Source: Cellulomonas sp. NS3
GTDB taxonomy: Bacteria; Actinomycetota; Actinomycetes; Actinomycetales; Cellulomonadaceae
Direction of reading: 5' to 3'
Assembly (NCBI RefSeq): GCF_024757985.1
Contig: NZ_CP103289.1
Span: 2,294,001-2,358,000, forward strand
DNA: 64,000 nucleotides
The notes below the pieces were generated by a model, which did no database searches, had not been told where the DNA came from, and saw only the letters and a program-made list of their open reading frames with translations. A program made the position numbers and the translations under genes. This document shows, piece by piece, positions 7,395-53,203 of the stretch; position 1 is the first letter of the stretch; every line of letters begins with the position of its first letter.

Positions 7395-7423
7395 CCCCGC
7401 GCCGACGCGGTGCCCCGGGGCCG

Positions 7424-11793: not shown

Positions 11794-13955
<2,162 letters not shown>

Positions 13956-24717: not shown

Positions 24718-25443
24718 GTGGCGGTGGAAGGGCAGACGGACCTCCTCGCCCGGCTCGCGTCCGCGGTCGCGGGCGCACCCGAGCACGAGAGCTTCACCTG
24801 GCGGCTGTGCGAGGCCACGCGCAGGCTCCTCGGAGCTGACGGCGCGTCCCTCACGGTCGACAACGCCTCGACGAACCGCATCACGCTGTGCGCGACCGAC
24901 GAGGTCGCGGCGCAGCTCGAGAACCTGCACGACGTGCTGGGGGAAGGGCCCGCCACGTCGGCGTACCTCACGGGCGAGCCCGTCGTCGTGACGCTCGCGC
25001 AGGCCGCGGAGCGCTGGCCGATGTTCGCGGAGTCCGCGACGCGTCAGACCGGGGCCGGCCAGCTCTACGCCCTGCCCATGCGCCAGGGGTTCGCGGTCCA
25101 GGGCGTCCTGACCCTCTACCGGCGCACCGCCGGTCCGCTCTCCGAGGACGAGGCGGCTGCGCAGTTCCTCGCGGACGCTCTCGCCGCCGCGCTCCTGCAG
25201 GACGCCGGCGTGCTCTCCGACCTCGGCCCCGGCGGGTCCTGGTCGAACCGCGCGCAGGTCCACCAGGCCACCGGGATGGTTGTCGCGCAGCTCGCGGTCG
25301 GAGTGCGGGACGCCCTCGCGATCCTGCGGGCCCACGCGTTCGCGCTCGACCAGCCCCTCGCGCAGGTCGCGCAGGCCGTCGTGGCCCGCGAGCCGGTGTT
25401 CCGCCGGAGCGACGACGGAGGAGCGAGGACCGCGCCCACGTGA
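24718..25443 (+). CDS. GAF-ANTAR transcription antiterminator (first copy)
   Basis: A 241-residue regulator. Residues about 10-155 form a GAF sensor domain (LLGADGASLTVDNASTNRIT shown in part as GADGASLTVD, then VLGEGPATSAYLTGEPVVV). Residues about 170-230 form an ANTAR RNA-binding domain (AQVHQATGMVVAQLAVGVRD, then DALAILRAHAFALDQPLAQVA). ANTAR domains bind paired hairpins in mRNA leaders and prevent termination. GTG start at 24718. It is convergent with a second, non-identical GAF-ANTAR gene. Confidence 0.9.
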   Translation: MAVEGQTDLLARLASAVAGAPEHESFTWRLCEATRRLLGADGASLTVDNASTNRITLCATDEVAAQLENLHDVLGEGPATSAYLTGEPVVVTLAQAAERWPMFAESATRQTGAGQLYALPMRQGFAVQGVLTLYRRTAGPLSEDEAAAQFLADALAAALLQDAGVLSDLGPGGSWSNRAQVHQATGMVVAQLAVGVRDALAILRAHAFALDQPLAQVAQAVVAREPVFRRSDDGGARTAPT

Positions 25444-25634: not shown

Positions 25635-26393
25635 TCAGCGGCTCGAGTCGCGGAACTCCGGGGGAGGGCTCGCCGGCTGGCCGGTCACACCCTCGATGAT
25701 CGCGACGGCGACGTCGCGGAGCTTGGTGTTGCGGTGCTGCGACGCGGTCCGCAGGATCGCGAAGGCGTCCTCCGCGCTGCACCGGTTCTGGGCCATGATC
25801 ACGCCCATCGCCTGGTCGATCGTCGCGCGGGAGGCGAGCGCGGCCTTGAGGTGGGAGTTGACCTCGGCCTGGCGCTGCGCCGAGCGGCAGACCGTGAGGG
25901 CGTGCGCGAGCTCCTGGGCGTAGCCCACGGCCGTCGCGAGGGCGGCGCCGTCCCAGGCGTCGGGCGTGGGGGAGTAGAGCGTGAGCAGCAGCTGGGCCTC
26001 GCCCTCGAGCCGCCCAGGGACGGCGACGACGGACCGGAAGCCGCAGGCGCGCGTGGCGTCGGCCCACCGGGGCCACCGCGTGTCGTCCTCGACGTCCGGG
26101 ACGACGACCATCCGGCCCTGCCGCCGCGCGGCAGCCGAGGGCCCTTCGGCGCGCTCGTCCGCCGTGCGCTCGCACGCCTCGGCGGCGGGGTCGCTCGAGG
26201 CGACCGTGCGCATCACGTCACCGTCCTGCACCGAGATCACGACGTGCGCCGACGGCACCACGCGTTGCAGCGCCGCGACCGGGAGCTGCTCGAGGAAGCG
26301 CTCGACGCACCCCGTCCCCGTCACCGCGTGCTCGTGCTCGTGCCCGTCGACCTCGTCGGCCGCGATCGTGAAGTCGTCCTTGGTCGTGGTCAT
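25635..26393 (-). CDS. GAF-ANTAR transcription antiterminator (second copy)
   Basis: A 252-residue protein: N-terminal acidic lead with HEHEH, GAF domain (about 35-180, with [20 protein letters not shown]), then ANTAR (about 190-240) [20 protein letters not shown] followed by [20 protein letters not shown]. The ANTAR part is clearly paralogous to the copy at 39622-40371 (shared [19 protein letters not shown]), much less to its convergent neighbour. ATG at 26393 with AGGGG 10 bases upstream; a GTG four codons earlier is also possible. Confidence 0.9.
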
Positions 26394-26644
26394 GCCGTTG
26401 CTCACCCCTGAACGTCCGGCTCGTGCCGCGTGCGTCCTCGCGCGCCCGTGTTCCCCAGGCGCAGTGCGAGCCGCTGCCCCAGAGCGGGCACGGCGGACCC
26501 GCGGAACCAGCATGAATCGCCCATGCCGACCACGCAACAGGAGGCTCTCGTCGCCGCGCGCGTCGTGGCTGGTCGTGGCATCCTTCGGGGGTCCGGCCGA
26601 GCCCAGTGCCGACGTTCCCGAGGGACCGACGGGGGAGCGCGCGC

Positions 26645-27562
26645 ATGCAGCCGCACCAGGGCACGAGCCGGGTCGTCGAGGACGACCGGGTGACCGTCGT
26701 CGTCGTGAGCCGCGACCGGCGTCGCGAGCTCCTGGACTCCCTCGCCCGGCACCGCGCCCCCGTCCTGCTGCTCGACAACGCCTCCGGCGACGGCACGGCC
26801 GAGGCGGTGCGGGCGTCGCTCCCCGACGTCCAGGTGACCGGCCTCGACCGCAACCTCGGTGCGTACGCCCGGACCCTCGGCGTGCGAGCCGCGCGCACGC
26901 CCTTCGTGGCGTTCGCCGACGACGACTCCTGGTGGGCGCCCGGTGCCCTGCGCCGCGCCGCCGACGTGCTCGACGCGCACCCGGACGTCGCCGTCGTGGC
27001 CGCCCGGATCCACGTGGGTCCCGAGGAGCGGCTCGACCCCTTCTGCGACGAGCTCGCCCGCTCGCCGCTGCCGCGCCGGGCGGGGCTGCCGGGGCCGGCG
27101 GTCCTCGGCTTCGTCGCGTGCGCCGCGATGGTCCGCGCGGACGCGTTCACGTCCGTCGGCGGGTTCGACGACGTGGTGCGCTTCCCCGGCGAGGAGGAGC
27201 GGGTCGCGCTCGACCTCGCCGCGGACGGGTGGCAGCTCGTCTACGTCGAGGACGTCCTCGTCCACCACCACCCGTCACCCGCCCGGCACTCGCCCGACGC
27301 GCGCGTGAGCGCCGTGACCCGCGCGCGCGTCCTCACCGCGGTGCTCCGGCTCCCGGCCCGCGACGCGCTGCGGACCGTGACCGGGGCGTGGGCCGGCGGG
27401 CCCGCGCCTCGCGCCGGGCTCCGCGCCGCCCTGCGCGACGTGCCGCGCGCGCTGCGGGCACGCCGGGTCGTGCCGCGCCACGTGCGGACCCTGCGCGCCC
27501 TGCTGCGCGACGAGCCCCCGCCGTCGCGACCCCACCCAGCCCTGCGACAGGAGACACCATGA
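26645..27562 (+). CDS. Family 2 glycosyltransferase
   Basis: A 305-residue GT-A enzyme: [69 protein letters not shown] with the metal-binding DDD, and a C-terminal [20 protein letters not shown] acceptor segment. No membrane span is evident. ATG at 26645 after GGGGGAG; the stop overlaps the next gene in an ATGA, pairing it with UDP-glucuronate decarboxylase, so UDP-xylose is a candidate donor (inference). Confidence 0.9.
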
Positions 27563-28545
27563 CGAGAAGCCTGACCGCGCCCGGACCCGTGCACACGTCG
27601 CTCGGCCGGGTGGTCGTCACCGGAGGCGCCGGGTTCCTCGGCAGCCACCTGTGCGAGGAGCTGCTCGCCCGCGGCAGCGAGGTCGTGTGCCTCGACAACT
27701 TCCTCACCGGCTCGCCCGCGAACGTCGCCCACCTCATGAGCGACCCCGCGTTCCACCTGCTGCGCTGCGACGTCACCGACTACGTGCACGTGCCCGGCGA
27801 CGTCGACGTCGTGCTGCACTTCGCGTCGCCCGCCTCGCCCGTCGACTACCTCCATCTGCCCATCGAGACGCTCAAGGTCGGCTCGGTGGGCACGGCGCAC
27901 GCGCTCGGCCTCGCGAAGGACAAGGGTGCCCGCTTCGTGCTCGCCTCGACCTCGGAGGTCTACGGCGACCCCCAGGTGCACCCGCAGCCCGAGGACTACT
28001 GGGGCCACGTCAACCCCGTGGGGCCGCGCGGGGTGTACGACGAGGCCAAGCGCTTCGGCGAGGCCATCACGACCGCGTACCGCACGACCCATCACGTCAA
28101 CACCGGCATCGTGCGCATCTTCAACACCTACGGACCGCGCATGCGGCCGAACGACGGCCGCGCCATCCCCACGTTCGTCCGGCAGGCGCTCGCCGGGGAG
28201 CCGCTGACCATCGCGGGCGACGGCTCCCAGACGCGGTCCGTCTGCTACGTCTCGGACCTCGTCGAGGGGATCCTCGCGATGGCGGCGAGCACGCACCCTG
28301 GTCCGGTGAACATCGGCAACCCGACGGAGCGGACCATCCTGCGGATCGCGCAGGACGTGATCGCCGCGACCGGCTCGTCGTCGACCGTCGAGCTCGTGCC
28401 CCGACCGGTGGACGACCCGGAGGTCCGGCGCCCCGACACCGCGCTGGCCCGCCGGGTGCTGGGCTGGAACCCGCGCGTGTCGTGGGACGAGGGGCTCGCG
28501 AGCACGGTCGAGTGGTTCCGCTCGGTGGTGACCGTCCCGGCGTGA
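27559..28545 (+). CDS. UDP-glucuronic acid decarboxylase (UDP-xylose synthase)
   Basis: A 328-residue extended SDR that converts UDP-glucuronate to UDP-xylose. NAD-binding motif [48 protein letters not shown] (characteristic of UXS), STSEVYGDP, the catalytic YDEAKR, and [19 protein letters not shown]. These are stronger for UXS than for dTDP-glucose dehydratase. ATG overlaps the preceding glycosyltransferase stop (ATGA). Confidence 0.93.
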
Positions 28546-28695: not shown

Positions 28696-29754
28696 TCAGT
28701 GCGCGCGGGCCAGGAGCGCGCGGGCGGCGGCGAGGACCTCGTCGGTGGTGACGCGGGCGAGCGCCGGGTCGAGGGTCGCGCCGTGGGGGTCGCCCGGGGC
28801 GTCCGGGGCGCCGTGCCACAGCACGGTGTGCCGCTCGGTGTCGACCGCGGGCCCCCACCGGGCGGGCGCGACGGGGCCGAACAGGAGGACCGACGGCGTC
28901 CCGGTCGCGGTCGCGACGTGCGCGACGCCCGTGTCGCCGCACACGACGAGGCGCGTGCGGGCCACGAGCGCGACGAGCCCGGGCAGGTCGAGCGTCCCCG
29001 CGGTGCGGTGCACGTGGCCGGGCGCGGTCGCTGCCTCGGCGACCTGGTCGACGAGGTCCTTCTCGCCGGCCGAGCCCGTGAGCGCGACGGTCAGCCCGCG
29101 TGCAGTGAGGTCGTGCAGCACGGTGCGCCAGCGCGCGGCGGGCCAGCGGCGCGAGGCCGACGCGGCTCCGGGGTGCAGCACGACGTCGGCGCGCGGGACG
29201 GCGGGCGCCGCGTCCCCGGCCGACCCGGCGGACCCCGCCGACGGGACCGGGAGCCGCAGGTCGCGGGAGTCGCAGGGCCCGCCCGCGTCCGCGACGAGGC
29301 GGCACCACCGGGCGACCTCGTGCTCGGCGTCGTCCCACGCGGGCCCGGCGTCGTGACCGGCCTCGGGGCACGCGAACGCCACGAGACGGTCCGGGTCCGT
29401 GCGGAGCAGGACATCGTGGCTCTGCGGCCCGCGGCCGTGCAGGTTGACCGCGACGTGCCCCCGCGCGTCCCACGGCAGCGCGGCACCCGGCGCGACGCCG
29501 CGGGCGGAGACCCCGGTGGCGTCGGTCTCCAGGACGGCGTCCACGACACCGAGGTCGCGCAGCAGCCCGGCCTCGGCGCGGGGTGCGGCGAGCACGAGCC
29601 GGCGGTCCGGCCACGCCCGCCGCACCCCGCGCAGCGCGGGCACCGCGGTCAGCGCGTCCCCGAGGCCGAGCGCCCGCAGCACGAGCACGTCGCCCCCGGG
29701 GCGCGCCGACCCGGCTCCCGGACGGCCCGGTGCGCCGCCGGGTGCACCGGTCAC
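28696..29754 (-). CDS. GT9-family glycosyltransferase (heptosyltransferase-like)
   Basis: A 352-residue GT-B protein of the ADP-heptose:LPS heptosyltransferase family: DVLVLRALGLGDALTAVPAL at the N-terminus, NLHGRGPQSHDVLL, VVLHPGAASASRRWPAARW and VVCGDTGVAHVATATGTPSV with the donor-binding Asp-Thr-Gly. GTG start at 29754 overlaps the SDR stop in a GTGA. It is the last gene of the nine-gene operon. In a Gram-positive the acceptor cannot be lipid A core; a cell-surface glycan or glycolipid is likelier. Confidence 0.9.
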   Translation of the reverse strand: MTGAPGGAPGRPGAGSARPGGDVLVLRALGLGDALTAVPALRGVRRAWPDRRLVLAAPRAEAGLLRDLGVVDAVLETDATGVSARGVAPGAALPWDARGHVAVNLHGRGPQSHDVLLRTDPDRLVAFACPEAGHDAGPAWDDAEHEVARWCRLVADAGGPCDSRDLRLPVPSAGSAGSAGDAAPAVPRADVVLHPGAASASRRWPAARWRTVLHDLTARGLTVALTGSAGEKDLVDQVAEAATAPGHVHRTAGTLDLPGLVALVARTRLVVCGDTGVAHVATATGTPSVLLFGPVAPARWGPAVDTERHTVLWHGAPDAPGDPHGATLDPALARVTTDEVLAAARALLARAH

Positions 29755-30479
29755 GGCCAGGAGCCCTCGCCGGAGGCCATGACGAGCATCTCGCGGATCT
29801 CGCAGCCGACGGGCTGGCGCAGCGCGGTCAGGACGGCGGCCGCGGTGTCGGCGGGGTCGTTGAGGTCCGCGTCGGGCCCGGGGCGGTACTGCTCGGTGCG
29901 CCCGTCGAAGAACGGGGTCCGCATCCCGCCGGGGACGAGCAGCGTGACGCCGACCCGCCCGGCGAGCTCGGCGGCGAGCGCCTGGCTGAAGCCGCGGACC
30001 GCGAACTTCGACGCGCAGTACGCCGTGGCGTCGCTCACGCCCTTGAGCCCGAGGGTCGAGGCGACGGTCACGACGGTGCCGCGCGACTCCTCGAGGTGGG
30101 GCAGGCAGGCCCGGACGACCGCGACGGTCCCGAACAGGTTGACCCGCACGACGCGCTCCCACGTCTCGGGGTCGATGTCGGCGAGCGTCCCGCACGCGTC
30201 GGTCCCGGCCGCGGTGACGACGGCGGACGGCGGGCCGACCTGCGCGACGAGCTGCTCGACGGCGGCCGCGGCGGCGGTGCTGTCCGACAGGTCGACCTGG
30301 ACGTGCGGGACGTCGGCCGCGGGCGCGCTCACGTCGAGCACCGCCGGACGCCCGCCGGCCGCGGCGACGGCCTCCACGACGGCCGCGCCGAGGCCGCTCG
30401 CGCCGCCGGTCACGAAGACGGTGCCGATCTCACGCGGGGCCCGGGCGGCGGGTCGGGTCGAGGTGTCGAGCTGGGTCAC
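29751..30479 (-). CDS. Short-chain dehydrogenase/reductase
   Basis: A 242-residue classical SDR: cofactor motif VFVTGGASGLGAAV, the NAG-like VVTAAGTDACG, catalytic Ser in VTVASTLGLKG, and YCASKFAVRGF (YxxxK). It is too short and of the wrong subclass for HldD, the heptose 6-epimerase, so a sugar 4- or 6-oxidoreduction is only a guess. GTG start, nine bases after the hldE stop with GAGGAG as Shine-Dalgarno; the only operon junction without overlap. Confidence 0.9.
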   Translation of the reverse strand: MTQLDTSTRPAARAPREIGTVFVTGGASGLGAAVVEAVAAAGGRPAVLDVSAPAADVPHVQVDLSDSTAAAAAVEQLVAQVGPPSAVVTAAGTDACGTLADIDPETWERVVRVNLFGTVAVVRACLPHLEESRGTVVTVASTLGLKGVSDATAYCASKFAVRGFSQALAAELAGRVGVTLLVPGGMRTPFFDGRTEQYRPGPDADLNDPADTAAAVLTALRQPVGCEIREMLVMASGEGSWP

Positions 30480-30488
30480 GAGGTCTCC

Positions 30489-31913
30489 TCACTGGTGGTC
30501 CGCGCGGGCGAGCCCCGAGCGGCGGATCATGGTGCTGGTCGAGCGCCCGTCGAGGTAGGGCAGGAGGACGACCCGCCCCCCGTGCCGCTGCACGACCTCG
30601 GTCTCGGGCAGGTCCGCGCCGCCGTAGTCGGCGCCCTTCGCCCACACGTCGGGGCGCAGGGCCTCGAGCGCGGCGCGGGGGTCGTCCTCGTCGAACACGA
30701 CGACGGCGTCGACGCAGTCGAACGCGGCGAGCACGCGCGCCCGGTCGGCCTCGGTCACGACGGGTCGGCCCTCGCCCTTGAGCCGGCGCACCGACGCGTC
30801 GGAGTTGAGCAGCACGACGAGCGCGTCGCCGAGCCGGCGGGCCGACTCGAGCATGGCGACGTGCCCGGCGTGCACGAGGTCGAAGCAGCCGCCGGTCGCG
30901 ACGAGGGTGCCCCCACCGGTGCGCAGGCGCGCAGCGACGTCGGCGAGCGCGACGTCGCGGTGCTCGACGGCGTCGGGCTGCGCGGCGGCGGACCCGTCGG
31001 CGGTCGCCGCCTCGGTGACGGCCCGGAACGCGTCGGCGCCGCCCCCGCGCACCCACGCGGTGGCCTCGGCGACGGCGGCCTGCACGGCCTCGGTGAGCAC
31101 GGCGCCGCGCGCGAGGGCGACGGCCGCGGTCGCGGCGAACCGGTCGCCGGCCCCGCACGGGTCCCCGCCCTCGACGGACGGCGCGGGCACGAACAGCGGC
31201 GCGCCGCCGGTCGGCGCGACGTACGCGCCCTGCGCGCCGACGGTGACGCACACGGCGCGGGCCTGCCACGTCGCGCGCAGCCGGCCCGCGAGCTCCTCGG
31301 GTGAGTCGCCGCCGGGCCCGTGGTCGCCGGCGGCGGCCGCTCGGGCCTCCCCGAGGTTCGGCGTCACGAGCGTCGCGCGGGGCACGGGGGCGCCGCCCCG
31401 CGGGTGCGGGTCCCACACGAGCAGCCCGCGCGCGGCCCGCTCGGCGAGCAGCGAGCGCACGTCCTCGTCGCGCGTCGTCCCGGCGCCGTAGTCGCTGACC
31501 AGCACGACGTCGGCGCTCTCGAGCGCGGCGCGCACCGCCGCGACCTCGACGTCGCGGGGGGTCCCCGGGCCGCCGTGGTCGAGGCGCACGAGGGACTGAC
31601 CTCCGCTGCGCACGCGCTCCTTGAGCCGCGTGGGCCCGCGGTGGCCGAGCGCGAGAACCCCGACGTGGGGCTCGAGGGCGGCACGCAGCCGGCGGCCCTC
31701 GGGGTCGTCGGCGATCGGGGCGACGAGCGTCACGCGCGCCCCGGAGGCCGCGCACAGCAGCGCGGTGAGGCCCGCGCCGCCGGGGCGCTCTCGCACGTCG
31801 GACACGTCGACGACGGGCACGGGTGCGTCGGGGCTGAGCCGGTCGGAGCGCCCGTGGACGTCCCGGTCGAGGACGACGTCGCCGACGATGACGACGTGGG
31901 GGCGGGCGGTCAT
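30489..31913 (-). CDS. hldE: Bifunctional heptose-7-phosphate kinase / heptose-1-phosphate adenylyltransferase (HldE)
   Basis: A 474-residue two-domain protein. The N-terminal PfkB-like kinase (about 1-310) has VVIVGDVVLDRDVHGRSDRL, GGAGLTALL and the anion-hole GGDPCGAGDRF; it phosphorylates D-glycero-D-manno-heptose 7-phosphate at C1. The C-terminal nucleotidyltransferase (about 335-474) has TGGCFDLVHAGHVAML and DVWAKGADYGG; it transfers AMP. HldE homologues give the beta anomer and ADP-heptose. ATG overlaps the gmhA stop (ATGA). Confidence 0.94.
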   Translation of the reverse strand: MTARPHVVIVGDVVLDRDVHGRSDRLSPDAPVPVVDVSDVRERPGGAGLTALLCAASGARVTLVAPIADDPEGRRLRAALEPHVGVLALGHRGPTRLKERVRSGGQSLVRLDHGGPGTPRDVEVAAVRAALESADVVLVSDYGAGTTRDEDVRSLLAERAARGLLVWDPHPRGGAPVPRATLVTPNLGEARAAAAGDHGPGGDSPEELAGRLRATWQARAVCVTVGAQGAYVAPTGGAPLFVPAPSVEGGDPCGAGDRFAATAAVALARGAVLTEAVQAAVAEATAWVRGGGADAFRAVTEAATADGSAAAQPDAVEHRDVALADVAARLRTGGGTLVATGGCFDLVHAGHVAMLESARRLGDALVVLLNSDASVRRLKGEGRPVVTEADRARVLAAFDCVDAVVVFDEDDPRAALEALRPDVWAKGADYGGADLPETEVVQRHGGRVVLLPYLDGRSTSTMIRRSGLARADHQ

Positions 31914-32623
31914 GCGCGCGCGCCGGTGCCGTCGAGGGACCGGCGGTCGAGCGCGGGTGCGGGCGGACCGGGCACCGCGGGCCCTGGGGGCGCTGGGGGC
32001 GGTCCCACCACCGCGGCCGACGGGGCATCCACCCCGGCGAGCCCCGCGTCGTGCTGCTCGACGCGCGCGTCGAACGCCGCGCACAGCGCGTGGATCGCGA
32101 CGAGGTGCGCGGCCTGCACCGCGGCCGTCGACGGCGCGGGCACGGCGAGCGCCTCGTGCGAGCGCCCGACCAGCGGGTTCGGCGCGACGCCCGTCAGCGC
32201 CCACACGCGCAGCCCGAGCGCCTGGCCGCGCTCGGCCGCGCGCAGGATGTTCGGGCTGCGCCCCGACGTGGAGAGCAGCACGAGCACGTCGCCGGGGCGG
32301 CCGTGCGCCTCGACCTGCCGGGCGAACATCTCGTCGGCGCCGTAGTCGTTGACGATCGCGGTGACGCTCGAGCTCTCGGCGCACAGCGACAGCGCGGAGA
32401 ACGGCCGCCGGTCGGCGAGGAAGCGCCCGACGAGCTCGCTCGTGAGGTGCTGCGCCTCCGCGGCGCTGCCCCCGTTGCCCGCCACGAGCACGCGGTGCCC
32501 CGCGACGAGGCGGTCGGCGAGCTCGGCGCCCCAGCGCTCGACGAGCCAGCTCTGGTCCCCGAGCCAGCGCAGCGCGCGCGTGAGCTCGCCGGTGTGCTCC
32601 TCGATCCACGACTGCGTGCTCAT
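31910..32623 (-). CDS. gmhA: Sedoheptulose-7-phosphate isomerase (GmhA, SIS domain)
   Basis: A 237-residue SIS-domain protein that isomerises sedoheptulose 7-phosphate to D-glycero-D-manno-heptose 7-phosphate, the first heptose step. VLVAGNGGSAAEAQHLTSEL with the phosphate-binding and His residues, SAIVNDYGADEMFARQVEAH-like TAIVNDYGADEMF and LLSTSGRSPNILRAAE are family hallmarks. About 40 Pro/Ala-rich C-terminal residues are an extension. ATGA overlaps on both sides. Confidence 0.93.
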   Translation of the reverse strand: MSTQSWIEEHTGELTRALRWLGDQSWLVERWGAELADRLVAGHRVLVAGNGGSAAEAQHLTSELVGRFLADRRPFSALSLCAESSSVTAIVNDYGADEMFARQVEAHGRPGDVLVLLSTSGRSPNILRAAERGQALGLRVWALTGVAPNPLVGRSHEALAVPAPSTAAVQAAHLVAIHALCAAFDARVEQHDAGLAGVDAPSAAVVGPPPAPPGPAVPGPPAPALDRRSLDGTGARA

Positions 32624-33855
32624 ACGGCCTGCTCCTCGACGACGTGGGCCACCCGGCCGGCGGACAGAAGCTCCCGGTACACGCGTGCGGTCTGCTGCGC
32701 GACGCGGTCCCACCCGTACCGGCGCACGGCGCGGCGCCGGGCGGCGGTGCCCAGCTCGACGGCGTGCTCGGGGTCGTCGACGACGCTGCGGACCGCCCGG
32801 GCGAGCGCGAGCGCGTCGCGCGGGGGGACGAGCACGCCGGTGGTGCCGTCCTGGACGGTGTCGAGCATCCCGCCGACGGCGCTCGCCACGACGGGTCGCC
32901 CGCACGCCGCGGCCTCGAGCGGGACGATCCCGAACGGCTCGTACCAGGGGGTCGCGACCACGACGTGCGCGGACCGCAGCACGGCCGGCATGTCGTCGTG
33001 CGCGACGCGCCCGAGGAACCGGACCCGGTCCTCGACCCGCAGGTCGACCGCGAGCTGCCACAGGCGCCGGCCCTCGGGGTCGTCGCGCACCTCCTCCTGC
33101 GCGGGCCCGCCGACCACGGCGAGCTCGACGTCGGGCAGGAGCGGCAGCGCGCGCACGGCGTTGTCGACACCCTTGCGCTCGACGAGCCGGCCCACGGACA
33201 GCATCCGGAACCGCCCGTCCTGCAGCGGCGGGACGGCGTCCTCCGGTCGCGGTGGCCGGAAGTGCGTGACGTCCACGCCGCACGGCACGACCGACACGCG
33301 CGAGGCGGGGACGCCGAGCCGCACGAGCTCGGCGAGCTCGTCGGTGCACGTCGCGACGACCCGCGTGACGGTCCGGGCGATCTGGGCCTCGACGTCGGCG
33401 CGCCCCGCGGGGCTCGTGTCGCGCTCGCCCTGGTGACGGCGCTTGACGGACCCGAGCGCGTGGAACGTCTGCACCACGGGCGGGCCCGTCACGGCGGCGG
33501 CCCGCAGCGCGGCGAGCCCGGACATCCAGAAGTGCGCGTGCACCACGTCGGGTGCGCCGTGCTCCCGCCACTCCCGCGCGAGCTCGTCGCCGAGCTCGGT
33601 CATGTAGGGGAGCAGCTCGTCCTTCGGCAGCGCCCGCGCCGGCCCCGCGCTCACGTGCACGACCCGCACGCCCGGGCGCATCTCGACGACCCGCGGCAGG
33701 GACGCGTCGTCGCGCCGGGTGTACACGTCGACCCGGTGACCCAGCCTCGCGAGGTGCTCGGCGAGCGCGGCGACGTGGACGTTCTGCCCGCCGGCGTCGA
33801 CGCCACCGAGCGTGGCGAGCGGGCTGGCGTGCTCCGACACCATCGCGATCCTCAT
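32620..33855 (-). CDS. GT4-family glycosyltransferase
   Basis: A 411-residue GT-B retaining glycosyltransferase. N-terminal MRIAMVSEHASPLATLGGVD and AGGQNVHVAALAEHLARLGH (as in sucrose-phosphate-synthase/MshA-like enzymes), HAHFWMSG, PCGVDVTHFRP, then the GT4 donor motif PWYEPFGIVPLEAAACGRPV with the EX7E glutamates and GMLDTVQDGTTGVLVPP. Donor and acceptor are unknown. It is translationally coupled on both sides. Confidence 0.93.
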   Translation of the reverse strand: MRIAMVSEHASPLATLGGVDAGGQNVHVAALAEHLARLGHRVDVYTRRDDASLPRVVEMRPGVRVVHVSAGPARALPKDELLPYMTELGDELAREWREHGAPDVVHAHFWMSGLAALRAAAVTGPPVVQTFHALGSVKRRHQGERDTSPAGRADVEAQIARTVTRVVATCTDELAELVRLGVPASRVSVVPCGVDVTHFRPPRPEDAVPPLQDGRFRMLSVGRLVERKGVDNAVRALPLLPDVELAVVGGPAQEEVRDDPEGRRLWQLAVDLRVEDRVRFLGRVAHDDMPAVLRSAHVVVATPWYEPFGIVPLEAAACGRPVVASAVGGMLDTVQDGTTGVLVPPRDALALARAVRSVVDDPEHAVELGTAARRRAVRRYGWDRVAQQTARVYRELLSAGRVAHVVEEQAV

Positions 33856-34811
33856 CGGACGACCTCCTTGAGCAGGACTTGCCAGTCGGACAGGAAACGG
33901 TCGAGACCGAAGCGCTCGAGCGCGTGGGCGCGGGCGGCCCGGCCGTGGGCGCGGGCCTCCTCGGGGTCGTGCAGCCAGCGGCGTGCGGCCGAGACGAGCA
34001 CGTCGGGGTCCGAGCTGACGACGCCGGCCGACGGCGGGACGGCCTCGGGCGCCGCCGTCGTCGCGAGCGCGAGCACCGGCATGCCGATCGTCATCGCCTC
34101 GACGAGCGCGAGCCCGAGGCTCGTCCAGCGGAACGGGTGCAGGTAGGCGCGTGCCCCGGCGAGCCGCGCGTGCATCCGGGCCTGCGGGACGTCGTCGTGC
34201 AGGTGGCCCGCGAGGCCCGGGACCAGGTCCGCGAGCCCCAGGACCCCCATGCCGTACACCTCGACCGGGACCCGCCCCGCGGCGTGCACCAGCAGGTCGG
34301 TCCCGGCGACCCGCCCACGCCGCACGGGCTCGTTCACCACGACCGCGACCCGCTCGCGCTCCCCGGTGTACAGCGGGCCCGGGTCGTGCACCCCGTGGTC
34401 GACGACCGTGGTCGGTGCGCGCCCGCAGTCCCACATGAGCGCGTTGAACGCGGTCACGTGCGCGACGGGGATGTCGGAGCGGTCCGCGAGCGGGTGCCGG
34501 GTCGTCGCCGCCGGGCCGGCGGGCGTGTTGTGCTCGACGTACACCGCCGGCACGTCGAGCCCCGCGCGCAGCCCCGTCCAGCGCTCGAGCAGCTCGATCT
34601 CGTGCGGGCGCTGGAGCACCACGACGTCGGGCTCGGCCGCCCGCAGCGCCTCGGGGGCGACCTCGCGGGCGCTCGCGGGCCACGTCCAGGTCCGCGCGCG
34701 ACCGCGACCGTCCGGCCCGCGATCGGGCACCACGGGGATCAGGTACTCGTCCGGGCCGGCGACGAACGACGTCTGCCACGAGCCGTGCACGTGCCACACG
34801 AGGACCCTCAT
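33852..34811 (-). CDS. GT4-like glycosyltransferase
   Basis: A 319-residue protein whose C-terminal half resembles GT4 donor domains: YLHPFRWTSLGLALVEAMTI then GMPVLALATTAAPEAVPPSA, with the Glu of EAM in place of the usual motif. The N-terminal half MRVLVWHVHGSWQTSFVAGP and VVLQRPHEIELLERW is acceptor-side-like. It is shorter than most GT4 enzymes (350-400) but both halves are present. Junctions are ATGA on both sides. Confidence 0.85.
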   Translation of the reverse strand: MRVLVWHVHGSWQTSFVAGPDEYLIPVVPDRGPDGRGRARTWTWPASAREVAPEALRAAEPDVVVLQRPHEIELLERWTGLRAGLDVPAVYVEHNTPAGPAATTRHPLADRSDIPVAHVTAFNALMWDCGRAPTTVVDHGVHDPGPLYTGERERVAVVVNEPVRRGRVAGTDLLVHAAGRVPVEVYGMGVLGLADLVPGLAGHLHDDVPQARMHARLAGARAYLHPFRWTSLGLALVEAMTIGMPVLALATTAAPEAVPPSAGVVSSDPDVLVSAARRWLHDPEEARAHGRAARAHALERFGLDRFLSDWQVLLKEVVR

Positions 34812-35932
34812 GCGCTCACCCCCGCCCCGAGCGCGGACCCGGTGGCCGCGCCGGCGACGGCGGCTCCCGCCGCCCCGGAGGCGCCGGCGAGGACGGCCGA
34901 GGGGCTGCCCGGCACGTGCGGGGCAGCTGCGGCGACCAGCGCGGCGACCGCGTCCACGACCTCGGCCGGGGAGATGCCGGTCAGGCACGGGTGGCCCGCG
35001 ACGGGGCACTCCCGCGCCCGGGAGCCCCGGCACGCCGCCCCCTGGTCGCCCAGCAGCCGGACCGGGACGCCGTAGGGCGCCCAGCGCTCCGCGGGAACGA
35101 CGGGGGAGAACAGGGAGACGACGGGTGTGTCGACGGCGGCCGCGAGGTGCGCCGGGCCGGTGTTGCCGGTCACGACGCACGCCGCACCGGCGAGGAGAGC
35201 GGCGAGCCGGTGCAGGTCGGTACGGCCCGCGACGGGCGTCCCGGTGCTGCCCGCGACCTGGGCGGCGAGCTCGTGCTCGGACGCCCCGCCCGTGACCAGC
35301 ACCCGCCAGCCGGCGTCGGTCAGGGCCGCGACCATCGCCGCGGCGTGCTCCGGTGCCGGCGCGCGCGAGGGCACCGACGCCGACGGGTGCACCACGACGT
35401 ACGGGCCGTCGGGCACGAGGTCCGCGACCGGGGGCAGCGGCTCCCGGACCCGCAGGCGCCCGTCGTCGCCGGGGGCGAGCTCGCCGCCCGCCGCCCGCGC
35501 GAGCCCGAGCGCCGCCTCCACCTCGTGCAGCCCCTCGGGGCGCGGGTGCCGCACGTCCAGCAGGGCCCCCGGGTAGTCGTGGCTCGTCGCGCCGACCCAC
35601 CCGATGCCCGCCATCCGCGCGAGCAGCGCCATGGGCAGCGGGCTCTGGTGGTCGGACGTGAACACCACGGCGCGGTCGTACTGGTGGGCGCGCAGGCGCG
35701 CGAGCAGCGCCTGGACCGCGCCCGTGCTGAACTCCGGCGGCCGGTACCCGCTCCACGGGGCGTCGAAGCGCAGCACCTCGTCGACGCCCGGCAGCAGCCG
35801 TGCGGCGGCCTCGCCCGACCCCGACACGAGCAGGTCGACGCCCGACGCCGTCGCGGCGAGGGCCCGGACCGCCGGACCCGTCAGCAGGACGTCCCCGACG
35901 TTGTCGAGGCGGACCGCGAGGACCTTGCTCAC
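34808..35932 (-). CDS. GT9-family glycosyltransferase (heptosyltransferase-like)
   Basis: A 374-residue GT-B enzyme: VLAVRLDNVGDVLLTGPAVR at the start, VFTSDHQSPLPMALLARMAG (key TSDHQSPLPMALL), GPYVVVHPSASVPSRAP, and CVVTGNTGPAHLAAAVDTPV, plus CRGSRARECPVAGHPCLTGI which is common in actinobacterial GT9 proteins. The last 35 residues are an Ala/Gly-rich tail. GTG start overlaps the previous stop (GTGA). Second GT9 of the operon. Confidence 0.92.
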   Translation of the reverse strand: MSKVLAVRLDNVGDVLLTGPAVRALAATASGVDLLVSGSGEAAARLLPGVDEVLRFDAPWSGYRPPEFSTGAVQALLARLRAHQYDRAVVFTSDHQSPLPMALLARMAGIGWVGATSHDYPGALLDVRHPRPEGLHEVEAALGLARAAGGELAPGDDGRLRVREPLPPVADLVPDGPYVVVHPSASVPSRAPAPEHAAAMVAALTDAGWRVLVTGGASEHELAAQVAGSTGTPVAGRTDLHRLAALLAGAACVVTGNTGPAHLAAAVDTPVVSLFSPVVPAERWAPYGVPVRLLGDQGAACRGSRARECPVAGHPCLTGISPAEVVDAVAALVAAAAPHVPGSPSAVLAGASGAAGAAVAGAATGSALGAGVSA

Positions 35933-37599
35933 CGGTCACCACCGCCGACCGTCGACAGCGACGCCGGCGCGGGGCCGGTCGGCACCCGCGGGGCGTGCGC
36001 TCCCGTGCGGGCGTGCTCCGCGCGGGTGCGCTGCTCCGGGGACGGGGGAGTCGTCCCGGCGAGGCGCTCGCGGACCAGCGCCACGGCCTCGGTCAGGCTC
36101 ACGGCGACGAGCGGTGCTGCCGCGACCTCCTCGGGCCGCGTCACCGGCGTGGGCACGAGCACCGCACCCGCCCCGGCGGCGATCGCGGCGCCGACGTCCG
36201 CGCCGATGTCGCCGACGACGACGCACTCCGCGGGGCTGACCCCGAGCCGCGCCGCGGCGCGCAGCACGAGACCCGGCTGCGGCTTGCGGCACGTGCACCC
36301 GTCGGCGGGGGTGTGCGGGCAGCGCACCCACACGTCGAACGGCCCGAGCTCGGCCTCGATCCGCGCCTCGACGGCCTCGACCTGCGCGAGCGTGAGCAGG
36401 CCGCGCCCGAGGCCGGACTGGTTCGTCACCACCCCGACCTTGATCCCGCGGGCGCGCAGGTCGTCGAGCACCGCGCGCGCGTCGTCCACGACCCGCACCC
36501 GGTCGGGGTCGCCGTTGTAGGGGACGTCGTGCACGAGAGTGCCGTCCCGGTCGAACAGCACCGCCTGCACCGGGACCGGCCACGGGGGCGCGCCGGCGCG
36601 GTGCGCCAGGGCGCCCGCGAGCCGGTGCCGCACCGCCGCCGCGGGGATCACGACGCTCGTCCACACCATCGTCCGCCGCTCCGCGAGCCAGCCGTCCTCG
36701 CCGCGCGCGGGCCCGGGCGCGATGCGGCGCCGCGCGAAGTCCGCCGTGAGCGCCGCCCACGCCGCACCCGCCAGCGCCGCGGCACCGCGCCGCCCGAGGA
36801 CCGCCGCCCCGAGCGCGCACACCCCCGCGCCGACGGTCGCGACGTGCCACGCGAACCGCCCCCGCCCGGTCTCGGCCTCCTCGCGCCACCGGGCCCCGTG
36901 CAGCGCCCGCATGAGCGCGTCGTCGCGCGCCCCCGCCTGGACCCGCACGCTGACCCGCGGGTCCGCCGGACGCACCGGGTGCTCCGTGGCGCGCGACCCG
37001 CGCACGAGCCGCCAGTCCTGCCGCCGTGCCCGCAGGGCCAGGTCCGCGTCCTCCCGGTACGCGCGCGGGAACCGCTCGTCGAAGCCGCCGAGCCGCTCGA
37101 GCACCTCGCGCCGGTACGCCATGTCGGCCGTCGCCCACCGCGCGCCCTCGAGCCCCGCGGTGTTCCGCTCCCAGTCGGTCGGGCGCCGGTGCCCGGGCAG
37201 CGGGACCCGCAGGCGCGCCTGGATGCCGGCGACGTCCGGCCCGGCCGCCGCGAGGTCCGCGGCGAGGTGCTCCGACCAGTCCGCGGGCAGCACGACGTCG
37301 TCGTCGAGCAGCACGACCCACTCCGCGCGCACCGAGCGCCACCCGGCGTTGCGCGCCGCGGCCGGGCCCCGCCCGCCCGAGCGGACGACCCGCACCGGCA
37401 CGCCCGCCCGGTCCAGACCCGTCAGGTCCGGCAGCACGAGCGCCCCCGGGGCGGCCTCGAGCGACCGGTCGTCGCACACCACCACCTCCACGGGCGCCGG
37501 GCGGTCCTCGCCGAACCGCTGCGCCGCGAGGCTCTCCAGCAGCACCCCGAGCGACGGACGCCCGATCGTCGGGACCACGACCGCGTACGCCGCCCTCAT
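35929..37599 (-). CDS. GT2 glycosyltransferase fused to heptose-bisphosphate phosphatase (GmhB)
   Basis: A 556-residue fusion. Residues 1-240 form a GT2 domain (YAVVVPTIGRPSLGVLLESL, VVVCDDRS, EWVVLLDDDVVLPADW with DDD, GGFDERFPRAYREDADLALR). Two hydrophobic stretches near 255-290 follow. Residues about 340-520 are a HAD phosphatase of the GmhB/HisB-N type: AVLFDRDGTLVHD, VVTNQSGLGRG, the zinc ligands in CPHTPADGCTCRKP and VVGDIGADVGAA. GmhB removes the C7 phosphate between the HldE kinase and adenylyltransferase steps, so this completes the ADP-heptose route. No frame break between domains. Confidence 0.92.
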   Translation of the reverse strand: MRAAYAVVVPTIGRPSLGVLLESLAAQRFGEDRPAPVEVVVCDDRSLEAAPGALVLPDLTGLDRAGVPVRVVRSGGRGPAAARNAGWRSVRAEWVVLLDDDVVLPADWSEHLAADLAAAGPDVAGIQARLRVPLPGHRRPTDWERNTAGLEGARWATADMAYRREVLERLGGFDERFPRAYREDADLALRARRQDWRLVRGSRATEHPVRPADPRVSVRVQAGARDDALMRALHGARWREEAETGRGRFAWHVATVGAGVCALGAAVLGRRGAAALAGAAWAALTADFARRRIAPGPARGEDGWLAERRTMVWTSVVIPAAAVRHRLAGALAHRAGAPPWPVPVQAVLFDRDGTLVHDVPYNGDPDRVRVVDDARAVLDDLRARGIKVGVVTNQSGLGRGLLTLAQVEAVEARIEAELGPFDVWVRCPHTPADGCTCRKPQPGLVLRAAARLGVSPAECVVVGDIGADVGAAIAAGAGAVLVPTPVTRPEEVAAAPLVAVSLTEAVALVRERLAGTTPPSPEQRTRAEHARTGAHAPRVPTGPAPASLSTVGGGDR

Positions 37600-39272
37600 C
37601 GGGCGGCCACCCCGGCGGACGCCCCCACGCGCGCGAACATCGTCGAGCGCCGCACCAGGTACGGGCCCACCACCAGCAGGTCCACGGGCGCCGACCCGAA
37701 CAGCTCGAGCGCGTCCCGCGGGTCGTCCACCATCGGGCGCCCCGCGGTGTTCAGGCTCGTGTTGATCACGACCGGCAGCCCCGTGCGGGCCTCGAACGCC
37801 CGCAGCGTCGCGCCCAGGCGCGGCTGCACCGCCGGGTCCACCGTCTGGATGCGCGCCGTCCCGTCGACGTGCACCGCCGCCGGGATCCGCTCCCGCCACG
37901 CCGGGCGGACGCTGTGCACGAACAGCATGTACGGGCTCGGGATCGGCCCGTCCGTGAAGATCTCCTCCGCGCGGTCCGCGAGCACCATCGGTGCGACGGG
38001 GCGGAACTGCTCGCGGCCCTTCACGTCGTTCAGGCGCTCGAGGTTCTCCGCGTGCCCCGGGTGCGCGAGCAGCGACCGGTGGCCGAGCGCTCGCGGGCCG
38101 AACTCGCTGCGGCCGTCGAACCAGGCGACCACGCCGTTGCGGGCCAGCACGTCGGCGACCTCCGCGCCGAGGTCGGCGGGCTCGCTGAACGGGACGGCCG
38201 CGCCCCGCAGCCACGCGGCGAGGTCGTCGTCGCTCCACCCGCGCCCGAGGTCGGCGCCCGGCATGGGCGCGAGCTCCTCGCCGCCGTCGGCCGCGACCTG
38301 CAGGGCCGCGCCGAGCGACGTGCCGGCGTCCCCGGCGGCGGGCTGGACCCAGACGTCCTCGAACGGGGTCTCGCGCCAGATCCGGGAGTTCGCGACGCAG
38401 TTGAGCGCGGTGCCGCCGGCCATCGCGAGCACCCGGTCACCGGTCTGCTCGTGGATCCAGCGCGCGAGCTCGACGAGGACCTCCTCGAGGCGCGCCTGCA
38501 CGGAGCACGCGAGGTCGGCGTGGTCGCCGCCCCAGGTGCCGTCGTCGACCCGCCTGGGCGCCCACCGCGACCAGTCGGGCGCCTCGGCGACGAACCCGCC
38601 GTCACCCGTCGGGTGCACGACCTCGCGCAGCTCCTCGAGGAAGCGCGGCTTGCCGTAGGACGCGAGCGCCATGACCTTGTACTCGTCGCTCGAGCGCAGG
38701 AAGCCGAGGTGCTCGGTGAGCGACTCGTAGAGCAGCCCGAGCGAGTGCGGCAGGGCCTGGCTCGCGAGGACCTCGAGGCGTCCGCCGCGGTAGCGGCCCG
38801 CGAGGTGCGACGCGCGCTCGCCGCGGCCGTCGAGGACGAGGACGCTGCAGTCGCGGTGCGGGGCGGCCAGCGCGGCCGACGCGGCGTGCGCGACGTGGTG
38901 CGGCACGTACCGCACGAGCGCGGGGTCGACCTCGCCGCCGAGCGCGGTCGAGATGAAGCCGGGGGCCTTCTCGGCGTACGTGGTGCGCAGGTGGTCCCAC
39001 GGGTCGTGCAGGCCGAGCTGCTCGGCGGGGACCACGAGGCCCGGGTCGAACGAGTACGCGATCGCGTCGAGGTCCTGCGGCTTGAGGCCCGCCTCGGCGA
39101 GGCACCAGCGCATCGACAGCTCGGGCAGCTCCCACGCGGAGAACGGGACGGGGCGCTTGCCGTGCTTGCGCCGGCTGAAGCGTTCCTCCTCGGCGGCGGC
39201 GACGGTGACGCCGTCGACGACGAGGGCTGCGGAGGGGTCGTGGTAGATGGCGTTGACGCCGAGCACGCGCAT
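37596..39272 (-). CDS. NodU/TobZ-type carbamoyltransferase
   Basis: A 558-residue O-carbamoyltransferase: VLGVNAIYHDPSAALVVDG at the start, AEEERFSRRKHGKRPVPFSA, the Kae1-like metal/histidine segment YVPHHVAHAASAAL, DGRGERASHL, GTALNCVANSRIW, and the C-terminal YrdC-like half FGPRALGHRSLLAHPG and VVINTSLNTAGRPMVD. Such enzymes make carbamoyladenylate and transfer carbamoyl to sugar hydroxyls (nodulation factors, tobramycin). First gene of the operon; ATG has AAAGG 12 bases upstream, and its stop overlaps the GT2-GmhB start. Confidence 0.95.
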   Translation of the reverse strand: MRVLGVNAIYHDPSAALVVDGVTVAAAEEERFSRRKHGKRPVPFSAWELPELSMRWCLAEAGLKPQDLDAIAYSFDPGLVVPAEQLGLHDPWDHLRTTYAEKAPGFISTALGGEVDPALVRYVPHHVAHAASAALAAPHRDCSVLVLDGRGERASHLAGRYRGGRLEVLASQALPHSLGLLYESLTEHLGFLRSSDEYKVMALASYGKPRFLEELREVVHPTGDGGFVAEAPDWSRWAPRRVDDGTWGGDHADLACSVQARLEEVLVELARWIHEQTGDRVLAMAGGTALNCVANSRIWRETPFEDVWVQPAAGDAGTSLGAALQVAADGGEELAPMPGADLGRGWSDDDLAAWLRGAAVPFSEPADLGAEVADVLARNGVVAWFDGRSEFGPRALGHRSLLAHPGHAENLERLNDVKGREQFRPVAPMVLADRAEEIFTDGPIPSPYMLFVHSVRPAWRERIPAAVHVDGTARIQTVDPAVQPRLGATLRAFEARTGLPVVINTSLNTAGRPMVDDPRDALELFGSAPVDLLVVGPYLVRRSTMFARVGASAGVAAR

Positions 39273-39621
39273 GCAGGCCGACCTTTCCAGGGGTCAGTCG
39301 GGGGAGCGCGTGGCTGTGCTCGAGGGACACTCTGTTCCCCTCGAGCACTTCTCGCACCTCGAACCGCTTCTCGGCGGTTGTCCGGTTCGTTCCGAACCGC
39401 GAGCGTCTGACCTGCGGTATCGGTTCCGGGCCTTGTCGCGTGACGCGGACGGCGCGGGTGCCGAGGGCCGCCTCCCCCGGGCTCGACGCCGCCCGTCGGG
39501 GCGGTCCTGGAGCCGGTCCTGGAGCCGGTGCGGGAGCAGTCCGGACGGGAGCCCGGCGCCGGTCCCGGGCGGTCCGGACGACAGCCTGGCGCCGGTGCGA
39601 GGGCGGTCCCGGGCGGCGGTG
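39273..39621 (-). promoter_or_regulatory. Hairpin-rich leader region upstream of the heptose/carbamoyl operon
   Basis: 349 bases with no convincing gene. On the minus strand, in order: CGGTTCG/CGAACCG with a 3-base loop (39383-39399), AACCGC/GCGGTT with the 6-base loop CGAGAA (39362-39379), and GTGCTCGAGGG/CCCTCGAGCAC with an 11-base loop (39316-39348), ending 43 bases before the carbamoyltransferase ATG. CGAGAAG and GCGGTTCG each occur twice. The stretch nearer the ANTAR gene (about 39500-39620) holds imperfect repeats of GGTCCTGGAGCC. Composition is less GC-rich than the genes around it. Confidence 0.55.
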
Positions 39622-40371
39622 TCAGGGCGTCGGACGGCGCTCCGCGAACTCGGTGCCGGGCTGCGGGGCGACGCCGGTGACGTTCTCGATGAGGGACGCG
39701 GCGACGTCACGGAGCTTGAGGTTGCGGTTCTGGGACGCGTTGCGCAGGATCCGGAACGCCTCCTCGGACGAGCAGCGGTTCTCCGCCATGATGACGCCCA
39801 TCGCCTGGTCGATCACGGCGCGCGAGGCGAGCGCGGCCTTGAGGTCCTCGTTGATCTCCGCCTGGTCCGCCGAGCGCAGGCACAGCCGCAGGGTGCGGGC
39901 GACCTCGTCGGCGTACATGTCGGCGGTGGCGAGCGCGTCGTCGTCCCACGCGCCCGGCTCCTCGGAGTACAGGTTGATCGCGATGTCGACGCCCTCGCGC
40001 ACCGCGCGGGGGATCGCGGCGGCCGACCGGAACCCGGCCTGCCGGGCGGCGTCGGCCCACGCGGGCCAGCGCTCGTCGCCGCGCTCGAGCTCCTGGATCA
40101 CGATCCGCTCGCCGGTGTCCGCGGACGTCAGGCACGGGCCCTCGTTCGCGGCGAACTCGACCTCGTCGCACTGCGCGGCACGCTCGTCGCTGCTGGCCAC
40201 GCCGGTGGGCCGCCCCTGCCGCTTGAGCATGATCGCGACGTGCGCGTCGGGCCGGATGCGCGCCGCCGCGGCCTGCGCGACGCCCTCGACGAACTCCTCC
40301 ACGCCCGCCGCCTCGAGCAGCAGCGTGTGCAGCTCGGTGATCGCGTGCGCGCGCTCGACGGTCCGGTCCAT
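39622..40371 (-). CDS. GAF-ANTAR transcription antiterminator (third copy)
   Basis: A 249-residue regulator: GAF domain (about 20-180, with ANEGPCLTSADTGERIVIQE and ERWPAWADAARQAGFRSAAA) and ANTAR domain (about 190-240, [40 protein letters not shown]). Paralogue of the gene at 25635-26393. ATG at 40371 is supported by GAGGAG seven bases upstream; a GTG ten codons earlier lacks one. It lies upstream of, and on the same strand as, the heptose/carbamoyl operon, whose leader holds several hairpins. Confidence 0.92.
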   Translation of the reverse strand: MDRTVERAHAITELHTLLLEAAGVEEFVEGVAQAAAARIRPDAHVAIMLKRQGRPTGVASSDERAAQCDEVEFAANEGPCLTSADTGERIVIQELERGDERWPAWADAARQAGFRSAAAIPRAVREGVDIAINLYSEEPGAWDDDALATADMYADEVARTLRLCLRSADQAEINEDLKAALASRAVIDQAMGVIMAENRCSSEEAFRILRNASQNRNLKLRDVAASLIENVTGVAPQPGTEFAERRPTP

Positions 40372-40481
40372 GGGTGCGCTCCTCGGCTCGACGACGTTCA
40401 CGGGACAAGGATCGCGCGGGCGCCCGGTTCGCGCACGTGCCCCGCGCGAGGCAGGTCGGACGCCCGTCCGGCTCGGGTCGC

Positions 40482-53130: not shown

Positions 53131-53203
53131 CCGCTTCACTCCTTCGGGAACGGTGGGGTGCCCCCGCAGCCCGGACAGCGGGCCGTGGCGGCGCCCGACC
53201 GTA

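Follow-up and report, generated by a model that had tools for sequence, protein, structure and literature searches.

In Streptomyces coelicolor, the 12 genes SCO6179-SCO6190 form the putative "cell wall glycan" (cwg) operon, which has a mapped SigE promoter and is induced by vancomycin (PMC6767563); since 2002, it has served as a marker for the envelope-stress response governed by SigE (Hong et al. 2002, cited in PMC6767563). In the annotations available for comparison, which do not include SCO6184, SCO6180–6188 (cwgB–cwgJ) are mostly putative transferases, together with a "dehydratase," a phosphoheptose isomerase, and a bifunctional synthase/transferase (PMC5839063, PMC4630627, PMC5882110, PMC13011467). 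Among them, SCO6183 is annotated as a putative heptosyl transferase and SCO6185 as a glycosyltransferase. Our literature searches found no identified cwg product for S. coelicolor. In this study, we analyzed a stretch of 64,000 nucleotides from Cellulomonas sp. NS3 (contig NZ_CP103289.1 of 4,776,279 bases, positions 2,294,001 to 2,358,000; hereafter, the window), which carries a heptose operon at 28696-39272. Judged by gene content and gene order, this locus is a rearranged Cellulomonas form of the cwg operon.

Other described systems resemble the locus in part. The Pseudomonas lipopolysaccharide (LPS) inner core shares the heptose donor pathway, GT9-type transferases, and a carbamoyl group, which there is located on heptose II (PMC8005017). 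In contrast, the genome studied here contains no HldD epimerase above cut-off, gave matches to neither LpxC nor KdtA, and offers no lipid A to build on; moreover, unlike the Pseudomonas inner core, its system includes a UDP-xylose supply and GT4 enzymes. The tridomain nucleoside diphosphate (NDP)-heptose synthetases of actinobacteria (Tang et al. 2022, via PMC11573728) likewise serve NDP-heptose synthesis, whereas the isomerase and HldE of the window are separate genes in a cwg context. The cwg type of operon was already known; the present analysis adds how widely it occurs in the phylum, a Cellulomonas form with a fusion and a rearranged order, the finding that unlinked carbamoyltransferase genes are inherited together with the heptose genes, and a composition that can be tested.

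Gene content and order compared with the cwg operon

The operon consists of nine genes arranged head to tail on the minus strand from 39272 to 28696, all of which the first-pass annotation had listed. The leading gene encodes a predicted O-carbamoyltransferase of the NodU/TobZ/GdmN family (37596-39272, 558 aa, Pfam Carbam_trans_N and Carbam_trans_C), the counterpart of cwgB. It is followed by a 556-aa protein (35929-37599, family profiles), the counterpart of cwgC plus cwgD, in which a GT2 domain (approximately aa 5-206) is fused to a C-terminal HAD-IIIA/GmhB-type heptose-bisphosphate phosphatase (approximately aa 344-506); both had been recognized earlier, although as separate units rather than one gene. 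The central genes encode a GT9 enzyme of the heptosyltransferase family (GT9a; 34808-35932, 374 aa, PF01075, cwgE counterpart), a GT4-like glycosyltransferase (GTb; 33852-34811, 319 aa, PF00534/PF13524, cwgF counterpart), and a GT4 glycosyltransferase near MshA (32620-33855, 411 aa, TIGR03449, cwgG counterpart). The sedoheptulose-7-phosphate isomerase GmhA (31910-32623, 237 aa, PRK13936/TIGR00441 as best matches) corresponds to cwgH, and the bifunctional heptose-7-phosphate kinase/heptose-1-phosphate nucleotidyltransferase HldE (30489-31913, 474 aa, PRK11316, TIGR02198, and TIGR02199) to cwgI. A classical short-chain dehydrogenase/reductase (SDR; 29751-30479, 242 aa, PF00106, motifs TGGASGLG and YCASK) and a second GT9 enzyme (GT9b; 28696-29754, 352 aa, PF01075, cwgJ counterpart) complete the operon. 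Neighboring genes overlap by 4 bp at seven of the eight junctions, and HldE and the SDR are separated by a 9-bp gap, a small correction to the earlier description. Among named records, Cellulomonas cellasea NBRC 3753 comes nearest, at 97% for the carbamoyltransferase and 96% for HldE.

A codon-position gene caller written for this analysis, which misses some genes, recovered the same nine genes as well as two plus-strand genes that lie directly behind the operon and converge with it. These encode a predicted UDP-glucuronate decarboxylase (UXS, UDP-xylose synthase; 27589-28545, structure matches), the counterpart of cwgA, and a GT2 enzyme (end GT2; 26645-27562, kept in related loci), the counterpart of the last two cwg genes, SCO6189/6190; both start codons are uncertain. 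The heptose unit is thus larger than nine genes, with the convergent pair at 26645-28545 belonging to the same system. The biochemical reading in the first-pass annotation was sound, but it missed the cwg type of the operon, the phylum-wide spread, the UDP-xylose synthase, and the extra GT2.

To compare the locus with cwg operons, the 28-nt SigE promoter of S. coelicolor cwg (PMC6767563) was searched in 295 genomes of the genus Streptomyces with at most three mismatches. It was found in eight, whereas a reversed control pattern gave no match; five of the eight were fetched (L168-L172), and a sixth, G334, is locus L045. In G764, a genome of 8.63 Mb, the exact promoter precedes twelve genes in the order UXS–carbamoyltransferase–GT2–GmhB–GT9a–GTb–GT4–GmhA–HldE–GT9b–GT2–GT2, and a polysaccharide deacetylase gene is divergent from the operon, matching the annotation of SCO6178 (PMC6767563). 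The same twelve genes occur in L171 and L172, and also in L169, where GT9a and HldE are each spread over two frames. L170 is a cwg remnant; together with L147, it keeps the first genes or the promoter with the rest lost, so that, with the frame-split genes of L169, decaying cwg operons are apparent in Streptomyces. The window locus contains every one of the eleven kinds of gene found in the G764 operon, and the order from carbamoyltransferase through GT2, GmhB, GT9a, GTb, GT4, GmhA, and HldE to GT9b is the same. Relative to S. coelicolor cwg, the window differs in the GT2-GmhB fusion, in the extra SDR inserted before GT9b, which has no counterpart in L168-L172, and in the transfer of UXS and one end GT2, instead of two, to the convergent pair. 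Moreover, wherever a published cwg annotation names a particular function (isomerase, bifunctional enzyme, heptosyl transferase), it agrees with the family found here, and the "dehydratase" is taken for a HisB-like GmhB.

Further relatives were obtained from an alignment scan with the carbamoyltransferase, of which the best 80 of at least 581 are considered here as named loci, with genes labeled at ≥80 bits. Among the 26 named loci that begin with UXS, five carry, no farther than 400 nt away, a cwg promoter differing at 1–5 positions; the remaining 21 show 11–15 mismatches, which amounts to no cwg promoter, L094 among them having no upstream DNA. The SigE-like pattern [GC]NAAC-N15-17-NGTC gave a single loose match before the operons of twelve relatives, in L067 (C. 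cellasea). It is thus by gene content and order, and not by its regulation, that the window operon is linked to cwg here.

Distribution of the locus and co-occurrence of its carbamoyltransferase with the heptose genes

HldE was detected at E ≤ 1e-40 in 44 of 396 genomes drawn from Actinomycetota. The window is one of the best 30 HldE loci, and the remaining 29 were retrieved with as much as 20 kb each and scored with a threshold of 100 bits (180 for GT9b, 150 for the SDR). Alongside HldE, these 29 loci contain GT9a, GmhA, and GT4 in 28 cases each, GmhB and GTb in 27 each, GT9b in 25, carbamoyltransferase and GT2 in 24 each, and the SDR in 21; GmhA, HldE, GmhB, and GT9a occur together in 26. 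Gene order is mostly that of the window. The exceptions are L047, L055, L058, L059, and L062, in which GTb–GT4 stands ahead of the carbamoyltransferase, and L050, in which GTb lies apart. Carbamoyltransferase and GT2 are absent from L042, L060, and L065, and L057 retains GmhA and HldE only; some absences are due to contig ends (L043, L049). In the named loci, HldE was labeled in 56, GT4 in 59, GT9a and GTb in 55 each, GmhA in 44, UXS in 42 (41 at ≥250 bits), GT9b in 41, GT2 alone in 36, GmhB alone in 29, fused GT2 and GmhB in 26, the SDR in 24, and the end GT2 in 21; these counts are lower bounds because many loci are short or lie at contig ends and the caller misses genes. The same operon in other actinobacteria, for which a genome search had been proposed at the outset, thus recurs over the phylum, and an isolated, odd operon is rejected, as the same gene set recurs in distant actinobacteria, well beyond what chance would give.

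Within the family of the window, HldE is widespread yet often missing (23 of 121 genomes; two of the seven listed for the genus). A tree of 54 HldE rows, made up of the window and the 53 named loci whose HldE exceeds 380 aa, for the most part agrees with NCBI families, with 11 label changes against a shuffled mean of 27.5; Cellulomonadaceae alone account for 4 label changes. Because the tree mostly tracks families, it speaks for mainly vertical descent of the operon with loss. An empty-site comparison in five Cellulomonas genomes without HldE was uninformative, as the two flanking genes tested were not usefully shared. Two loci have unusual HldE genes. L057, from a Streptomyces-type genome without other cwg genes, contains a 679-aa HldE-bearing gene (9291-11327) in which a GmhA match directly precedes HldE; it may encode a tridomain NDP-heptose synthetase. 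L060, which has no carbamoyltransferase in the locus, contains two HldE genes (6804-8231 and 12195-13553), one of them more distant (229 bits).

The UDP-xylose branch recurs as well. UXS matches the UDP-glucuronate decarboxylase 1 structures 4gll/2b69 at 1e-102 and 347 bits, compared with 135 bits for the next enzyme type. With the window included, UXS is present in 11 of the 30 best HldE loci and the end GT2 in 15 (≥170 bits). The most widely spread extra neighbor is a nucleotide-sugar dehydrogenase, found in six of 55 named loci from five families (one of the six was scanned) and beside five of 29 further fetched loci (one of the five was scanned). Its best named match, under the model cut-off, is UDP-glucose 6-dehydrogenase, the step before UXS. 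UXS and this recurrent dehydrogenase therefore support UDP-xylose, or glucuronate, as a probable building block.

The carbamoyltransferase was found at E ≤ 1e-120 in 35 of the 396 genomes. By hand count, 29 genomes have both HldE and the carbamoyltransferase, six the carbamoyltransferase alone, and 15 HldE alone (Fisher p 3e-27, which is no clean probability since the genomes are related). Four of the six carbamoyltransferase-only genomes (G013, G200, G269, G381) end at a contig end behind carbamoyltransferase–GT2, G155 has a more distant carbamoyltransferase (48% identity) without other cwg genes, and the sixth, G193, retains UXS, carbamoyltransferase, and GT2 only. Furthermore, in 15 named loci the carbamoyltransferase stands alone, with no other cwg gene in the stretch. 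Fourteen of these are titled Modestobacter, Geodermatophilus, Blastococcus, or Geodermatophilaceae, and the gene follows a helicase gene in the three loci examined (RecQ-like by Pfam in L093). All 13 genomes of this kind that were searched contain HldE elsewhere, twelve nearly full length at >400 bits and one split between two contigs. Five HldE regions were retrieved from them; all contain GT2+GmhB, GT9a, GTb, GT4, GmhA, HldE, and GT9b, and four also contain UXS. If the stand-alone carbamoyltransferase acted on something else, HldE would not need to be present; as judged from the genomes, this co-occurrence ties the enzyme to the heptose pathway independently of linkage. The carbamoylated sugar would most likely be a heptose; the nearest precedent is Pseudomonas WapO, a putative carbamoyltransferase, with the carbamoyl group on heptose II (PMC8005017). 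Collectively, these comparisons establish, at the level of sequence, the gene set, its order, the correspondence to cwg, the families of the pathway enzymes, and the co-inheritance of carbamoyltransferase and heptose genes.

Predicted enzymes and flanking features

The best PDB matches of GmhA are phosphoheptose isomerases (best 9.7e-34). For HldE, the kinase part best matches the heptose kinase 4e84, and the nucleotidyltransferase part matches 5x9q, named "putative cytidylyltransferase." The best matches of the GmhB half, 4pnh and 2gmw, are D,D-heptose 1,7-bisphosphate phosphatases. The catalytic motifs of the three pathway enzymes, with the roles generally assigned to them and including the zinc loop and DxD motifs of GmhB, are kept. 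The heptose-donor pathway of the first-pass annotation is supported by these matches, while its nucleotide, given there as ADP, may be a different one, since the arginine of the GRST motif fits UTP and CTP as well. Arginine at position 5 of the STTR5 motif (F/L)XXGRSTT is the hallmark of heptose nucleotidyltransferases that are promiscuous for nucleoside triphosphates (PMC11573728). The motif of the window HldE reads YLDGRSTS, its first and last letters departing from the published form, and the arginine is present in 23 of 29 related HldE, with tyrosine in five and histidine in one. Because HldE carries this arginine, UDP- or CDP-heptose is a possible donor besides ADP-heptose.

HldD was not found above cut-off anywhere in the 4.78-Mb genome (best 96.5 bits versus 274.6). 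L,D-heptose formed through an HldD encoded elsewhere is therefore rejected, and D-glycero-D-manno-heptose is expected, as had been anticipated. The SDR may act as a non-HldD epimerase. Among LPS genes, the markers LpxC (PF03331) and KdtA (PF04413) had no matches in the genome, other LPS genes not being searched, which agrees with the earlier view that the heptose enters a product other than LPS.

Both GT9 matches of the whole genome are the two enzymes of this operon, and structure matches relate them to WaaC/WaaF, in keeping with their earlier assignment to the heptosyltransferase family. The family profile of GT9a matches WaaC (2gt1/2h1f) at 6.6e-18 over most of its length, so that its fold can be regarded as settled by profile comparison. 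Residues D14, R190, E219, T258, G259, and H262 of GT9a are invariant or nearly so in 17 sequences, with D14, R190, T258, and H262 fully invariant, and align with WaaC D13, K192, E222, T262, G263, and H266; we take D13, K192, E222, and D261–H266 to be donor-site or catalytic residues of WaaC. The C-terminal half of GT9b aligns with WaaF (1psw) and WaaC, and its DTGVAH motif (DTG..H) is kept. The GT4 enzyme scores 260.9 bits against TIGR03449 (MshA), under the cut-off of 462.5, and its nearest PDB structures are 6kih (Tll1590), presumably a cyanobacterial sucrose-phosphate synthase, and 3c48 (MshA). MshA and sucrose-phosphate synthase both use small phosphorylated acceptors, a hint that the GT4 acceptor is perhaps also small and phosphorylated. 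GTb is present in 27 of the 29 related loci at ≥100 bits, and including the neighboring GT2, glycosyltransferase genes number six. Additionally, the carbamoyltransferase family profile matches 12 PDB sequences, all carbamoyltransferases including TobZ and GdmN (E 5e-106 to 3e-119), and the HHVAHA and DGRGE motifs are kept.

The operon is preceded by a leader at 39273-39437 (minus strand), in which 150 of 172 alignment columns are identical to C. cellasea, compared with 116 of 200 in the preceding DNA. A strong hairpin lies at 39316-39348 with the loop AACAGAGUG (fold z-score -2.7). In a check for an ANTAR-type RNA in the leader, based on only two sequences, the window gave no Rfam match at gathering scores. 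GAF-ANTAR proteins flank the heptose system at 39628-40401 (-), 25641-26405 (-), and 24718-25437 (+); the first two are approximately 50% identical, and the third scores just under the ANTAR cut-off. They are possible RNA-binding antiterminators, and the leader might be the target of a neighboring ANTAR protein, or an operator. Farther away, at 50380-53250 (-), lies the gene for a likely secreted glycanase of 956 aa, which combines sortilin/BNR-type repeats with a CBM2 cellulose-binding domain at its C terminus.

Proposed product and rival explanations

The explanation that we consider probable, with room left for others, is that the locus directs a cwg-type cytoplasmic synthesis of a carbamoylated oligosaccharide, containing D,D-manno-heptose and probably xylose, for the cell envelope. 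GmhA would isomerize sedoheptulose 7-phosphate, the kinase domain of HldE would produce heptose 1,7-bisphosphate, and the GmhB half of the GT2 fusion would take off the 7-phosphate. The nucleotidyltransferase domain of HldE would then yield NDP-D-glycero-D-manno-heptose, that is, ADP-heptose and perhaps the UDP or CDP form as well. Both GT9 enzymes would transfer heptose, UDP-glucuronate decarboxylase would provide UDP-xylose, and the GT4 and GT2 enzymes would attach the remaining sugars. Finally, the carbamoyltransferase would cap a sugar of the chain, most likely heptose. The oligosaccharide would be assembled in the cytoplasm and used in the envelope, with expression rising under cell-wall stress, at least in Streptomyces. 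In this scheme, we infer every substrate, the sugar order, the carbamoyl site, the acceptor, and the envelope location.

Several observations weigh against this proposal. None of the pathway enzymes reaches its NCBIfam equivalog cut-off: full-length HldE scores 296 of 521 bits, its nucleotidyltransferase domain 177.1 of 181.5, its kinase domain 151.9 of 345, GmhA 150.7 of 276, and GmhB 109.8 of 178, which makes the exact pathway substrate less certain. The position of WaaC D261 is an invariant N257 in GT9a (17 sequences). At the carbamoyltransferase threshold, 15 of the 44 HldE genomes lack this enzyme; most of these have low-scoring HldE, while four (G008, G204, G279, G352) have high-scoring HldE (≥368 bits), and the complete-scored Streptomyces genome G193 retains UXS, carbamoyltransferase, and GT2 without HldE. 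A SigE-like promoter of the above pattern is absent from the 488 nt upstream of the window operon, other extracytoplasmic function (ECF) types not being tested. The operon has hardly any membrane segment (a simple hydropathy scan found one weak segment in eleven proteins), leaving export unexplained, and inspection of representative sequences by eye, without a family search, revealed nothing recognizable as a flippase, a polymerase, an ABC exporter, or an LCP ligase in the recurrent neighbors within approximately 10 kb. The sole recurrent transporter noticed is an MFS gene at 10 loci, all in Streptomycetaceae (e.g., L132 18898-20220 (-)), either a candidate exporter or a chance neighbor. Because no exporter was recognized nearby and the only membrane segment is weak, the product may be a short oligosaccharide that is attached to a lipid or some other acceptor and exported by genes elsewhere, or a soluble glycoside. 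Moreover, PMC11481543 describes streptomycete wall polymers of Kdn (3-deoxy-D-glycero-D-galacto-non-2-ulosonic acid), galactose, and N-acetylglucosamine and nowhere uses the word heptose, so that the cwg product, if a wall glycan, must be minor, inducible, or lost in work-up.

The lack of a recognized exporter, polymerase, or ligase among the neighbors common to families would also suit a small secreted or intracellular glycoside, a specialized metabolite into which the heptose goes as it does in septacidin (PMC11573728, PMC11461863), and several structure-solved carbamoyltransferases are named for antibiotic pathways (TobZ, GdmN, novobiocin). We regard this explanation as unlikely. The same core occurs in many families, and the HldE tree largely respects family boundaries; in S. 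coelicolor, the operon is under envelope-stress control by SigE and is induced by vancomycin (PMC6767563); and no polyketide synthase, nonribosomal peptide synthetase, or other scaffold gene was recognized by eye, without a family search, among recurrent neighbors. It is considerably less probable that the GT9 enzymes heptosylate proteins, giving a heptosylated, carbamoylated glycoprotein, although ADP-heptose serves protein glycosylation in E. coli (aah; PMC11461863) and all enzymes of the locus appear cytoplasmic in a crude scan. Six glycosyltransferase genes with the neighboring GT2 and a UDP-xylose supply point instead to an oligosaccharide, and the best structure matches of the GT9 enzymes are WaaC/WaaF. 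The equivalog scores below cut-off could finally mean that the HldE/GmhA pair handles another sugar phosphate and that no manno-heptose is made. This appears the most improbable of all, given that GmhA, HldE, GmhB, and GT9a stay together in nearly all the fetched loci (26 of 29) and that the best PDB matches are phosphoheptose isomerases, a heptose-7-phosphate kinase, and D,D-heptose bisphosphate phosphatases.

For the envelope oligosaccharide, the composition to look for is D,D-manno-heptose, xylose or glucuronate, and an O-carbamoyl group. More tentatively, and at present with the odds against it, many Actinomycetota might share an old envelope oligosaccharide, a D,D-heptose-xylose chain bearing carbamoyl, that takes the role of the LPS inner core where LPS is lacking. 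The cwg operon would make this chain, possibly from UDP- or CDP-heptose, and make more of it when the cell wall is attacked. Such a chain would represent a heptose-based envelope glycan outside LPS, together with a source of NDP-heptose in Gram-positive bacteria. If the proposed product is correct, it would explain why many actinobacteria without LPS have kept NDP-heptose synthesis, a synthesis also of interest because the vertebrate sensor ALPK1 has NDP-heptoses among its agonists (PMC11573728, PMC11461863).

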